A DNA stretch of 64,000 nucleotides from an uncultured SAR86 cluster bacterium. Its GTDB lineage: Bacteria > Pseudomonadota > Gammaproteobacteria > Magnimaribacterales > D2472. Each line of letters begins with the position of its first letter. Position 1 is the first letter of the stretch. Below the pieces are notes generated by a model. That model ran no database searches. It was given only the letters and a program-made list of their open reading frames with translations, and was not told the origin of the DNA. The stretch covers positions 177,794-241,793 of the forward strand of contig CACJCN010000001.1 of the NCBI GenBank assembly GCA_902591925.1, in the 5' to 3' direction. The position numbers and the translations under genes were made by a program. Positions 4,185 to 9,242 of the stretch are shown one piece after another.

Positions 4185-5579
4185 ATGGAAAACGATTATA
4201 AAGTTGCTGATATAAAACTTGCAGAATTTGGAAGGAGAGAAATATCTCTTGCAGAAAATGAGATGCCAGCCTTAATGGCGTTGAGGGATAAATATAGAGA
4301 TGAGCAGCCTTTGGCTGGTGCAAAAATAATGGGATGCATTCACATGACTATTCAGACTGCTGTTTTGATGGAAACATTACTTGATCTTGGAGCAGAATTA
4401 AGATGGTCATCCTGTAACATATTTTCAACACAGGATCACGCAGCAGCAGCAATGGCTGCAAAAGGAGTTCCTGTATTTGCTTGGAAAGGTGAAACTGAAG
4501 AGGAGTACGAGTGGTGCATTGAACAAACTATTTGTAAAGATGGGAAGCCATGGGATGCAAATATGATTCTTGATGATGGAAGTGATCTTACATCAATGGT
4601 GCATGCTAAATTTCCTGACATGTTAGAGACTATCCATGGTGTGTCCGAAGAAACAACTACTGGGGTGCATAGGTTAAAAGAAATGCTTGAAAAAGGTGAA
4701 CTAAAAATTCCTGCTATTAATGTAAATGACTCAGTTACAAAAGCAAAAAATGATAATAAATATGGATGCAGACATAGTCTTAATGATGCTCTAAAAAGAG
4801 GAACCGATATGTTGCTTTCTGGTAAGAAAGGGTTAGTAATTGGTTATGGAGATGTTGGTAAAGGTTCGGCTGCAAGTTTGGCTCAAGAAGGCATGATAGT
4901 CAGTGTTGTTGAATCAGATCCAATTTGTGCGATGCAGGCATGCATGGATGGATTTGCAGTTGTCTCATGTTACAAAAATGGTGTGGTAACCAGAGATCCT
5001 AAGGATATTAACATGGATGTCATGGGTGATACGGATCTAATAGTAACTACCACTGGTAATGTAAATGTTTGTGATTCTGCAATGATAAGCACTTTAAAAA
5101 ATACTGCAGTTGTGTGTAACATTGGTCATTTTGATAATGAGATTGATACTGCTTATATGAGGGAAAACTACTACTGGGATGAAATTAAGCCACAGGTTCA
5201 CAGAGTTTTTAGAGATACAGCCCCAGATGGAACTCCTGATTTGTCGAGCAAAAACTATATTATTTTGCTAGCTGAAGGAAGATTAGTAAATCTTGGAAAT
5301 GCAACAGGGCATCCTAGTAGAATTATGGATGGATCTTTTGCAAATCAAGTCCTTGCACAAATTCATTTATATAAACAAGGCTTTGCAAATGTTAATGATG
5401 CGGATAAAAAAGCAGAAATGTTAACCGTTGAAGTATTGCCTAAGAAACTTGATGAAGAAGTTGCTAGTCTCATGGTTGAAGGTTTTGGAGGAACGGTAAC
5501 TCAACTCACCAAAGAACAAGCTGATTATATTAATGTTCCTCAGGATGGGCCTTTTAAAGAGGAAAGTTATAAATACTAA
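4185..5579 (+). CDS. ahcY: S-adenosylhomocysteine hydrolase
   Basis: This enzyme splits SAH into adenosine and homocysteine with a bound NAD, relieving product inhibition of methyltransferases. The 464-residue protein has the substrate-domain HMTIQTAVL and [14 protein letters not shown] motifs, the catalytic DDGSDLT stretch and the NAD-binding [10 protein letters not shown] near residue 222. It ends in the conserved FKEESYKY tail that reaches the NAD site of the partner subunit. Enteric gammaproteobacteria usually use the Pfs/LuxS route instead. The metK-ahcY pair here indicates the one-step hydrolase route. Confidence 0.97.
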
Positions 5580-5625
5580 AAAGCTTTTATATCAATTTAA
5601 ATAAATTAAATTCATAATACTGTTT

Positions 5626-5706
5626 ATGAATTTCAAAAAAATTTTTAGTTTAATTGTAATATTCCTTTTATATGGGTGCGGTGTAAAGGGTCCTCTAATA
5701 TTCTGA
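5626..5706 (+). CDS. lptM: Minimal LptM (YifL)-type lipoprotein, 26 aa
   Basis: This ORF is too short for the track. It encodes 26 residues: a basic start (MNFKKIF), a hydrophobic stretch, and the lipobox-like LLYGC with the lipidated Cys at residue 18. It then ends immediately after CGVKGPLIF. The CGLKGPLYF core is the family hallmark of LptM, the outer-membrane lipoprotein that helps LptD/LptE mature. E. coli LptM continues for about 40 further residues that are missing here. Position supports the call, because it sits directly before lysA-dapF-DUF484-xerC, where yifL lies in other gammaproteobacteria. No ribosome-binding site is evident. A CATAAT about eight bases before the ATG would fit a very short leader. 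Confidence 0.82.
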   Translation: MNFKKIFSLIVIFLLYGCGVKGPLIF

Positions 5707-5724
5707 GAATTATATTTTTAATAC

Positions 5725-6960
5725 ATGAGTAGTTTTATATACAAAGATAATATTCTTTTTTGTGAAAATGTTGCTGTAACCGACATTGTTAAAGAGGTCG
5801 GTACTCCGGCATATGTATATTCAAAGAAGACTTTATTAGATAATTTTGATTCCTATTCTAATGCCTTCAAAAAAAATTATGGATTGGTTTGTTTTTCTGT
5901 TAAGTCTCTGAGTAATATTTCTGTACTCAAATTATTAAAAAATAAAGGAAGTGGTTTTGATATCGTCTCTGGAGGTGAATTGGAGAGAGTCTTGGCTGCT
6001 GGTGTAGATCCAAAAAAAATAATATTTACAGGCATTGCAAAATCCAACGAAGAAATTATCCAAGGCATAAGAAAAAATATTTTGTCTTTTAATATTGAAT
6101 CTGAGGCAGAAATGTTAAGAATAGAAAAATTAGCTACTAATGAAAATAGAATTGTTGATGTTGCAATAAGATTCAATCCTGAGATTGATTCAGGTGGACA
6201 CGAATATATTAAAACTGGAAGAAAAAAGGATAAGTTTGGTGTTTTATTAAAAGGAGTTATCAATTTATCTAAATATATTTTGAATTCTAGTTCGCTAAAC
6301 CTTATTGGCTTGTCATGCCATATTGGCTCTCAAATATTTGAATTAAATGATTTTGAAGAATCTGCAAAATATATAAAAAAACTTGCTAAAGAAATTAATA
6401 AACTTGGTATTGAACTTAAATTTCTAGATGTTGGAGGAGGTTTAGGTATCTCCTATACTGACTCAAGCTTTCCTTCTCCCTCAAATTTGATAAAAAATCT
6501 TGAAAATATCTTAGGTGATAGAACTGAAAAAATTATTATAGAGCCTGGAAGAAGCATTTCTGGAGATGCCGGAATTTTATTAACAAGCGTAGAATACGTT
6601 AAAGATAATTATCTTATTATTGATGCTGGAATGAATGACTTAATTAGGCCAGCTTTATATGATGCAAAACATCAAATCATAAACGTTGAGAATAATAAAG
6701 TCCCAACAAAAGAGTGGACAATAGTTGGGCCAATATGTGAGTCATCAGATGTAATGGCTAAAAATTATAGCTTGGGTGCATCAGGTGGAAGTATTTTAGC
6801 TATTAAAACAGCAGGTGCATATGGGCATGTTATGTCATCAAACTATAATTCTAGACGAAAGCCGCCAGAGATATTAGTAGACGATAATAACTTTGAGATT
6901 ATAAGAAAACGAGAATCATATGAAGATCTGATAAGACATGAGGTAAATCTTGGGTCTTAA
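5725..6960 (+). CDS. lysA: Diaminopimelate decarboxylase
   Basis: LysA catalyses the last step of lysine synthesis, meso-diaminopimelate to lysine, using pyridoxal phosphate. The protein is 411 residues, an alanine-racemase-like barrel followed by a beta domain. The PLP lysine lies in FSVKSLSN (residue 60). HIGSQ, DVGGGLG, EPGRS, GPICESSD and the C-terminal AGAYGHVMSSNYN motif are all present. dapF follows with an 11-base overlap, coupling the last two enzymes of the pathway. The start ATG lies 18 bases after the small lptM ORF. Confidence 0.97.
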   Translation: MSSFIYKDNILFCENVAVTDIVKEVGTPAYVYSKKTLLDNFDSYSNAFKKNYGLVCFSVKSLSNISVLKLLKNKGSGFDIVSGGELERVLAAGVDPKKIIFTGIAKSNEEIIQGIRKNILSFNIESEAEMLRIEKLATNENRIVDVAIRFNPEIDSGGHEYIKTGRKKDKFGVLLKGVINLSKYILNSSSLNLIGLSCHIGSQIFELNDFEESAKYIKKLAKEINKLGIELKFLDVGGGLGISYTDSSFPSPSNLIKNLENILGDRTEKIIIEPGRSISGDAGILLTSVEYVKDNYLIIDAGMNDLIRPALYDAKHQIINVENNKVPTKEWTIVGPICESSDVMAKNYSLGASGGSILAIKTAGAYGHVMSSNYNSRRKPPEILVDDNNFEIIRKRESYEDLIRHEVNLGS

Positions 6961-7729
6961 TTTTGAAAAATGGCATGGTAACGGTAATGATTTTATAATC
7001 GTTAATTCTATTGAGTGCGAATTAAAAATTACTCGAAAAAAAATAACAAAAATTTCTGACAGAAATATAGGAATAGGATTTGATCAGCTAATAAAAATAG
7101 ATCTTCCAACAAAACCTAATCATGATTTTTTTATACGATTTTTTAATGCTGATGGATCAGAAGCTGGGATGTGCCTTAATGGCATAAGATGTGCTGCAAA
7201 ATATATATGGAACAATAACTTTGCTCCTGTAGGTAGAGTAAATTTCCAAACAAAAACAAAAAACATTATTTGTGAGCCTAAAGCCAAAAAAATGATTCAG
7301 GTTCATATGGAGCTACCAAATAAAATTGAGAGTAAAAGTTTATGTGACAACTTAAAAAATAAAGGAATTAATAATTTCTTTATCTCAAATATTGGAAATA
7401 ACCATCTTTGCATAAAAATGAAATCTATTAAAAAAATTAATCTTAATGAAATATATAAAAATCTTGAAGGAGTCATAAAGGAACTCGATATTAATTTGTC
7501 GATATTTAAAAAAGATGGAAACAGTATTGATATAAGAACTTTTGAAAATGGCGTTGGTGAAACCTTGTCATGTGGATCAGCTGCATTATGCGTTGCTTCA
7601 TATTTTCTTAAGGATAAACTTCTAAAAATAAGGTCGATTGGTGGTGAATTAGCCTTTAAAAAAAATAAAAATGGTATATTAATGGCAGGTCCTGCAAGTT
7701 TTATATACAGAGGAAATATAAGTGACTAA
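6950..7729 (+). CDS. dapF: Diaminopimelate epimerase
   Basis: DapF converts LL- to meso-diaminopimelate for lysine and peptidoglycan. The chosen start is a TTG inside the lysA 3' end, six bases after GAGG. It gives the family N-terminus KWHGNGNDFIIV. The two catalytic cysteines are seen in ADGSEAGMCLNGIRC and GVGETLSCGSAAL. The first is usually followed by GNG, but here it reads C-L-N-G, a departure beside an otherwise intact active site. The protein is 259 residues, slightly shorter than E. coli DapF. The 3' end overlaps the next gene by 8 bp. Confidence 0.95.
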   Translation: MGLNFEKWHGNGNDFIIVNSIECELKITRKKITKISDRNIGIGFDQLIKIDLPTKPNHDFFIRFFNADGSEAGMCLNGIRCAAKYIWNNNFAPVGRVNFQTKTKNIICEPKAKKMIQVHMELPNKIESKSLCDNLKNKGINNFFISNIGNNHLCIKMKSIKKINLNEIYKNLEGVIKELDINLSIFKKDGNSIDIRTFENGVGETLSCGSAALCVASYFLKDKLLKIRSIGGELAFKKNKNGILMAGPASFIYRGNISD

Positions 7730-8342
7730 AGAATTAAATCCCAAAGATGTTGAGCTTTTCTTACTTGATAATTTAGATTTCTTTGAAAGTAGAGAATCAC
7801 TTGTTGGAGAGATGAAATTTAAACATTCTTCTAGTTCTGCCTCATCTATTCTTGAAAGACAAATATTAAAACTTAGAGAAGAACATAAGAATCTTATAAA
7901 TTTATTATCATCGTTCATTGAAACTGCCAACATAAATGAAGATCTTTTCAATAAATCAAAGAGTCTCACATTAAAAATTCTTGAATCTAATTCTAAACAA
8001 GAGATTATAAAAGTAGTCGAAGATGCTTTTAAAAAAGACTTTAAAGTGAACAAGCCAATACTCAAATTTTATAAAAATGAGAGGATCGATGAACTTGAAA
8101 AAGTAACTGGTCTTTCATTTCATAAAGGGGCTATTCATTGTGGATCATTCTCTTCAGAAAAAATGTCAGTTTTATTTAAAGATAAGAAAGTTGAATCTAT
8201 GGTGATTTCAGTAGTGCTTATTGAAAGTCAAATTGGTCTTTTGATGTTAGGAAGCTATGATAGATCTAAATATCTTGGTAACGAAGATACCACTTTTATA
8301 GAATATATAAGGGATGTTTTAGAGAAAAAATTATCAAAATAA
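7722..8342 (+). CDS. DUF484 family (YigA-like) protein
   Basis: A 206-residue soluble protein of the DUF484 family, recognised from its start (ELNPKDVELFLLDNLDFF), the LERQILKLREEHKNL coiled-coil stretch near residues 43-60, a GAF-like second half, and its fixed place between dapF and xerC. Its biochemical role is not established. It starts at a GTG overlapping the dapF stop (GTGACTAA), so it is translationally coupled to dapF. xerC begins three bases after its stop. Confidence 0.85.
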   Translation: MTKELNPKDVELFLLDNLDFFESRESLVGEMKFKHSSSSASSILERQILKLREEHKNLINLLSSFIETANINEDLFNKSKSLTLKILESNSKQEIIKVVEDAFKKDFKVNKPILKFYKNERIDELEKVTGLSFHKGAIHCGSFSSEKMSVLFKDKKVESMVISVVLIESQIGLLMLGSYDRSKYLGNEDTTFIEYIRDVLEKKLSK

Positions 8343-8345
8343 TAT

Positions 8346-9242
8346 ATGAAGAATACATCGCCTATTCTTAATGACATTAATGAATACCTCGTTTTTGTCT
8401 CACAAGTAAAAAATCTCTCAGAAAATACAACAAAATCATACAAAAGAGATCTTAAAAAACTTTATCTATTTCTAGAGAAATTAAACGTAACAAATTATTC
8501 AGACATAAAAGAGGAAATCTGTTCCGCATGGATAGGTGACCTATACTCTCAAAATAATAAGCCTAAAAGTATTCAGAGGCACTTATCATCTGCAAAAGGA
8601 TTTTTTAGATTTCTAAAAAAAAATAATCTTATCAGCTCGTCACCTTTTGAACTAGTTACTGCGCCAAAATCATCAAATACTTTACCTGACGTTCTTTCTC
8701 CAGAGGATGTTGAACAACTTTTGAATTTTAAGCCATCTAATACAATAGAGATTAGAGATATGGCTATAGTTGAGCTAATGTATTCATCAGGATTAAGAGT
8801 TTCAGAGACTGTAAACATTAATATTAGTGACTTTGAAGAAAATATGTCTTTTCTGCGAGTATTAGGAAAGGGTTCTAAAACAAGATTAGTGCCGATGGGT
8901 AGATTTGCTATTAACGCAATTAATAATTGGATTAGTGAGAGGGAGAAAATTTCAAATAATACCGATGCACTTTTTTTAAATTCAAAAGGTTCAAGACTCT
9001 CAGTTAGAAGCATTCAAATGAGGTTAAAAAAAATGGCAATAAAGCAAGGCCTGCCCCCAGTCCATCCCCATATGCTAAGACATAGTTTCGCTACGCATAT
9101 GCTTGAATCTAGTGGTGATCTTAGAACTATACAAGAACTTCTTGGTCATAGCTCATTATCAACTACACAGATATATACCAAATTAGATTATCAGCATTTG
9201 GCAAAAATTTATGACAAATCACACCCACGAGCAAAAAAGTGA
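8346..9242 (+). CDS. xerC: Tyrosine recombinase XerC
   Basis: XerC, with XerD, resolves chromosome dimers at dif near the terminus. It is 298 residues, the E. coli length. An N-terminal SAM-like DNA-binding domain spans residues 1-100. The catalytic domain carries the Arg in SGLRVSE, Lys in [10 protein letters not shown], HxxR in [12 protein letters not shown], His in [10 protein letters not shown] and the Tyr nucleophile in IYTKLD. Its position downstream of dapF-DUF484 and before a YigB-type HAD gene is the classical gammaproteobacterial arrangement. That supports XerC rather than XerD or a phage integrase. Confidence 0.95.

Follow-up and report, generated by a model that had tools for sequence, protein, structure and literature searches.

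A nine-residue lipopeptide as the probable natural minimal form of LptM in the SAR86A genus

LptM was described in 2023, and the question at stake is whether it serves mainly the maturation of LptD disulfides or the opening of the LptD gate, and which part of the protein does the work. This question is raised anew by a very short open reading frame from the SAR86 cluster, in a genome of the genus SAR86A (g1, which includes the SAR86A scaffold JH611157). A literature search returned no paper that mentions LptM together with SAR86. The window analysed here is the whole stretch of 64,000 nucleotides; an Rfam scan of it gave 0 matches, and metK, named from the sequence by eye, also lies upstream of the reading frame. 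The features of the locus are as follows:

4185-5579: ahcY, upstream neighbour of lptM
5613-5618, plus strand: CATAAT, putative -10 element, 7 nt upstream of the lptM start
5626-5706, plus strand: lptM reading frame, 26 codons and TGA, encoding a signal peptide and a nine-residue lipopeptide; kept in 28/28 readable loci of the genus
5626-5676, plus strand: signal peptide MNFKKIFSLIVIFLLYG, 17 residues, lipobox LLYG/C, read from the sequence
5677-5703, plus strand: mature CGVKGPLIF, with the predicted lipidation-site Cys followed by Gly
5704-5706, plus strand: TGA stop of lptM, its position fixed in the genus, relatives using TAA, TAG or TGA
5725-6960, plus strand: lysA, downstream neighbour, ATG at 5725, with a TAA in the same frame at 5719
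6950-7729, plus strand: dapF
7722-8342: DUF484 gene, named from the sequence by eye
8346-9242: xerC, named from the sequence by eye

The first-pass annotation had described a 26-residue frame ending right after CGVKGPLIF and had taken it for a minimal LptM; its coordinates are exact, and the assignment is borne out both by profile comparison and by the genus-wide selection described below. The NCBIfam equivalog model for LptM (NF047847) scores the peptide at 28.3 bits, above its cutoff of 27.7. The Pfam model PF13627 gives 23.0 bits (E 6.8e-5), below its gathering score of 27.3; as this model has just 23 positions, 18 of which are spanned by the match, and the equivalog model is passed, we ascribe the miss to the limited sensitivity of so short a model. 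The sequence and the genus alignment show a signal peptide, a lipobox Cys and the motif G-x-K-G-P-L, and the gene order matches the lptM-dapF-yigA(DUF484)-xerC order of E. coli K-12. The C-terminal region by which the enterobacterial form contacts LptE is missing from the SAR86A protein, but outside Enterobacteriaceae this region shows little conservation (PMC10567701), so that it is not family-defining. By all the defining tests run, save the Pfam score, the frame is an LptM as judged from its sequence. It shares with E. coli LptM (YifL) the signal peptide, the lipobox Cys, the CG-x-KGPL motif and the dapF-DUF484-xerC neighbourhood, whereas it differs in having 26 residues in total against 67 and nine mature residues against 48, ending at the equivalent of F28 without the part that reaches LptE.

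The same genome carries a plausible set of partners. Its LptD (L181, 801 aa) conserves the hinge motif and all four disulfide cysteines of the E. coli protein, and the lipoprotein signal peptidase LspA is present. Its LptE (L237, 1495-2019) is divergent and was found between leuS and holA by synteny and protein search; this leuS-lptE-holA order holds wherever SAR86 LptE was examined, while searches with PF04390 were negative in 19/20 SAR86 genomes and gave one weak match. Two features of these partners are recorded in their own right. LptD proteins of the genus contain a loop that is rich in Met and has numerous MxM/MxxM motifs (about residues 590-632 in the window's own genome), which aligns with about residues 593-607 of the E. 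coli protein and is weaker in genera g2 and g4. Among the LptE proteins of the genus (loci L237 and L206), those of some species have a His/Met-rich insert, MDHSMHSNHSMLMNHSNN, which is lacking in the LptE of G011. A metal-binding role or a pairing of the two loops is possible.

Is the short form a peculiarity of one genome? LptM is near-universal in a sample of Gammaproteobacteria (345/370 at E<=0.001). At a loose threshold LptM-like matches occur in 109/120 relatives, and, as many of these are spurious, the loci were read directly. In all 28 readable loci of SAR86A the mature peptide has nine residues, or ten in two species with an extra Tyr, following the consensus CGV[KR]GP[LI][IL]F with the stop immediately after; in those genomes without a reading that were checked, ahcY was not detectable or was cut at a contig end. 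As all 28 loci share it, the short form is not a local truncation. The sister genera in the same family (f1) have mature parts of 15-23 residues and the SAR86 families f2 and f3 of 19-26; these proteins are like the SAR86A form in location and motif, and within f1 in a promoter-like element, but differ in their longer, variable tails. The shortest mature part in other Gammaproteobacteria is 18 residues, among about 30 loci readable by the motif used. A search of 398 Pseudomonadota genomes for the pattern CGxKGP(x)3-stop found the nine-residue form only in the window's own genome, apart from one match in G747, which lies antisense to an efflux gene without a signal peptide and was rejected as chance.

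The first-pass annotation had also proposed that purifying selection on the motif codons be examined and the lptM-lysA region be read in relatives. Parsimony reconstruction of codon changes on an ahcY tree of 28 SAR86A species places 58 synonymous changes in the nine codons of the mature peptide and 8 nonsynonymous ones, all of them K/R or L/I exchanges; under neutrality 75.7% would be expected to be nonsynonymous (p = 1.3e-27), and the omega-like ratio of 0.044 indicates strong purifying selection. The signal peptide codons, with 84 synonymous and 153 nonsynonymous changes (omega-like 0.52), encode a segment that is hydrophobic and variable in sequence. The final Phe is invariant despite six synonymous changes, and the stop position is identical in 26/28 species, which use three different stop codons. 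The motif is highly conserved across these loci, with neither motif loss nor a frameshift seen in the LptM of the 28 species. That the peptide is a decaying LptM, truncated and drifting to loss, might be suspected from the small, streamlined genomes of these bacteria and from the sister genus g6, which lost the entire lptM-lysA-dapF block; however, the constraint on the mature codons, the shared stop position under changing stop codons and the invariant terminal Phe make such a remnant highly improbable. In SAR86A, lptM is under selection and is not a remnant. A longer LptM interrupted by a frameshift was a separate candidate and is ruled out: the start codon of lysA lies 18 nt past the lptM stop with an in-frame TAA directly before it, so that a longer product is impossible, and the congeners share the stop codon position, one codon later in two of them. 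Longer LptMs do occur in sister genera, with no frameshift involved.

The proximity of the frame to lysA, with which it overlaps in several relatives, could instead be explained if it were a leader peptide or upstream reading frame that regulates or couples lysA translation. Against this, five close SAR86A species have lysA deleted downstream of the lptM stop, most of them retaining a leftover of its 3' end, and dapF comes next; in five more loci of the genus, and in genus g8, dapF lies directly downstream of lptM without lysA at that place. In all ten SAR86A species that lost lysA there the peptide is unchanged, so that it can be neither a leader of lysA nor a remnant in decay. Selection moreover acts on the residues themselves, beyond the reading frame alone, and we regard the leader explanation as having hardly any claim. 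The same observations divide an argument of the first-pass annotation, which had held a chance frame unlikely on account of synteny with lysA: the judgement stands on the 28/28 congeneric loci and on purifying selection, whereas the synteny with lysA is not its strongest support, since the ten species without lysA keep lptM unchanged. Loss of lysA from this locus with dapF kept (L018, L019, L020, L023, L024, L034, L061, L076, L163, L164, and also L021, L062, L068, L073) suggests, for these bacteria, a possible lysine auxotrophy with retained synthesis of DAP for peptidoglycan.

Structural and biochemical work on E. coli indicates how so short a peptide could function. Solved structures are available as 8h1r, 9ia2 and 9rpr. 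Cryo-EM resolves LptM residues 20-29 at the LptD hinge and gate, residues 20-28 lying against the hinge and strands beta1-beta4, and simulations show the gate loosened by LptM (PMC12644819). An LptM lacking residues 44-67, which retains 24 mature residues, still co-purifies with the translocon, and one lacking residues 22-30 does so poorly (PMC12644819). In the complex with the phage protein Rtp45 only the first ~10 LptM residues are visible, and permanent binding through these residues has been suggested (PMC12685063). We consider it very likely that the SAR86A frame encodes a functional LptM orthologue reduced to this docking tip. After cleavage by signal peptidase II and acylation, the lipopeptide would be sorted to the outer membrane, as expected from Gly, rather than Asp, at +2. 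Its acyl chains would sit at the beta1-beta26 lateral gate of LptD and CGVKGPLIF would lie against the hinge and beta1-beta4, in the position taken by residues 20-28 of E. coli LptM; from there it would loosen both hinge and gate as assembly and LPS insertion proceed. SAR86A would have dispensed with the C-terminal region through which the E. coli protein contacts LptE; the docking wedge would have been kept and the rest dropped, the peptide ending at the F28 equivalent.

A rival reading is that the lipopeptide is functional but now acts mainly away from LptD/LptE, for instance at BAM or in a structural capacity. It draws some appeal from the missing LptE-contacting tail and from LptD E275, the predicted salt-bridge partner of LptM K23 in E. 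coli, which aligns with Asn in this SAR86 family. Yet the motif is the very LptD-hinge contact seen in the solved E. coli complexes, and in SAR86 the LptD hinge motif is kept only in lineages that bear LptM, so that a role elsewhere seems to us unlikely.

The evidence from LptD is as follows. In all LptM-bearing lineages sampled, namely E. coli and the SAR86 families f1, f2 and f3, LptD carries the hinge motif SG[FI]L, which begins with S or T. LptM was undetectable by HMM searches, in partly incomplete genomes, in family f4 and in genus g6, which is nested within f1 and has the lptM-lysA-dapF locus deleted; these are the only SAR86 lineages sampled in which LptD is without SG[FI]L. The g6 LptD has SRFL in its place (G227R), with a six-residue insertion in front. 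Among 18 LptD columns invariant in LptM-bearing sequences, three (G227, T258, R277) are changed in all g6 sequences, all of them in the docking region; a Fisher test of this concentration gives weak p values of 0.04-0.15, depending on the set chosen. In f4 the motif is gone from a low-identity alignment. An apparent absence of LptD from f4, from negative PF04453 searches, proved wrong: a divergent LptD was recovered in 4/7 genomes tried, solely by search with an alignment of SAR86 LptDs. These f4 proteins (L275-L278) are very divergent and short, in frames of 625-646 aa, with one C-terminal Cys versus two.

The cysteines are distributed differently from the hinge motif. Family f3 has LptM, yet the C-terminal CC pair is missing from its LptD (L194, L203, L204), in which CPC takes the place of the single Cys at C2; in g6 LptD has all four cysteines and there is no LptM. 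From these two patterns it follows that in SAR86 LptM tracks the hinge motif rather than the disulfides. The association is suggestive, resting on about two loss events and one lineage of cysteine loss. It would suggest that the conserved role of LptM lies at the hinge and gate, and that disulfide maturation follows where LptD has cysteines.

Since the minimal form is selected across the whole genus, the N-terminal motif is the part kept by selection, and we infer that these nine residues are sufficient for both function and binding. That an N-terminal fragment of 24 residues binds in E. coli was already known from the laboratory construct lacking residues 44-67, which resembles the SAR86A protein in being an N-terminal form; the latter differs in being a natural form of nine mature residues, fixed by selection, and what is new is this natural minimal length fixed genus-wide together with the hinge-motif association. 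It is conceivable, as a tentative proposal somewhat short of even chances, that ancestral LptM was a lipopeptide wedge at the LptD hinge and lateral gate, independent of LptD disulfides and for which nine residues are enough, and that lineages losing LptM compensated with a rebuilt hinge, through the six-residue insertion and G227R in g6 and the loss of SG[FI]L in f4. The natural peptide ends where the cryo-EM density ends, and SAR86 lineages separate LptM from LptD cysteines and not from the hinge motif; taken together, this makes the question of the working part, and of disulfide maturation or gate opening, directly testable with a very short construct. The peptide furthermore gives a minimal scaffold for lipopeptides acting on the LPS translocon.

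Finally, a -10-like hexamer precedes the lptM start in 56/58 loci of family f1, being exactly CATAAT in 47 and spaced by 6-7 nt in 55, and no -35 element was identified at lptM. As this putative -10 lies just 6-7 nt from the start codon, it points to a transcript that may be leaderless or nearly so. In many relatives (e.g. L027, L030, L038, L054, L072) the ahcY-lptM gap holds an inverted repeat, ATTATGGGC..GCCCATAAT, with this -10 as its right arm; in the subclade of the window itself the repeat is not obvious. Its two arms change together in some species, from GGG/CCC to GAG/CTC, and it is a candidate operator or hairpin.
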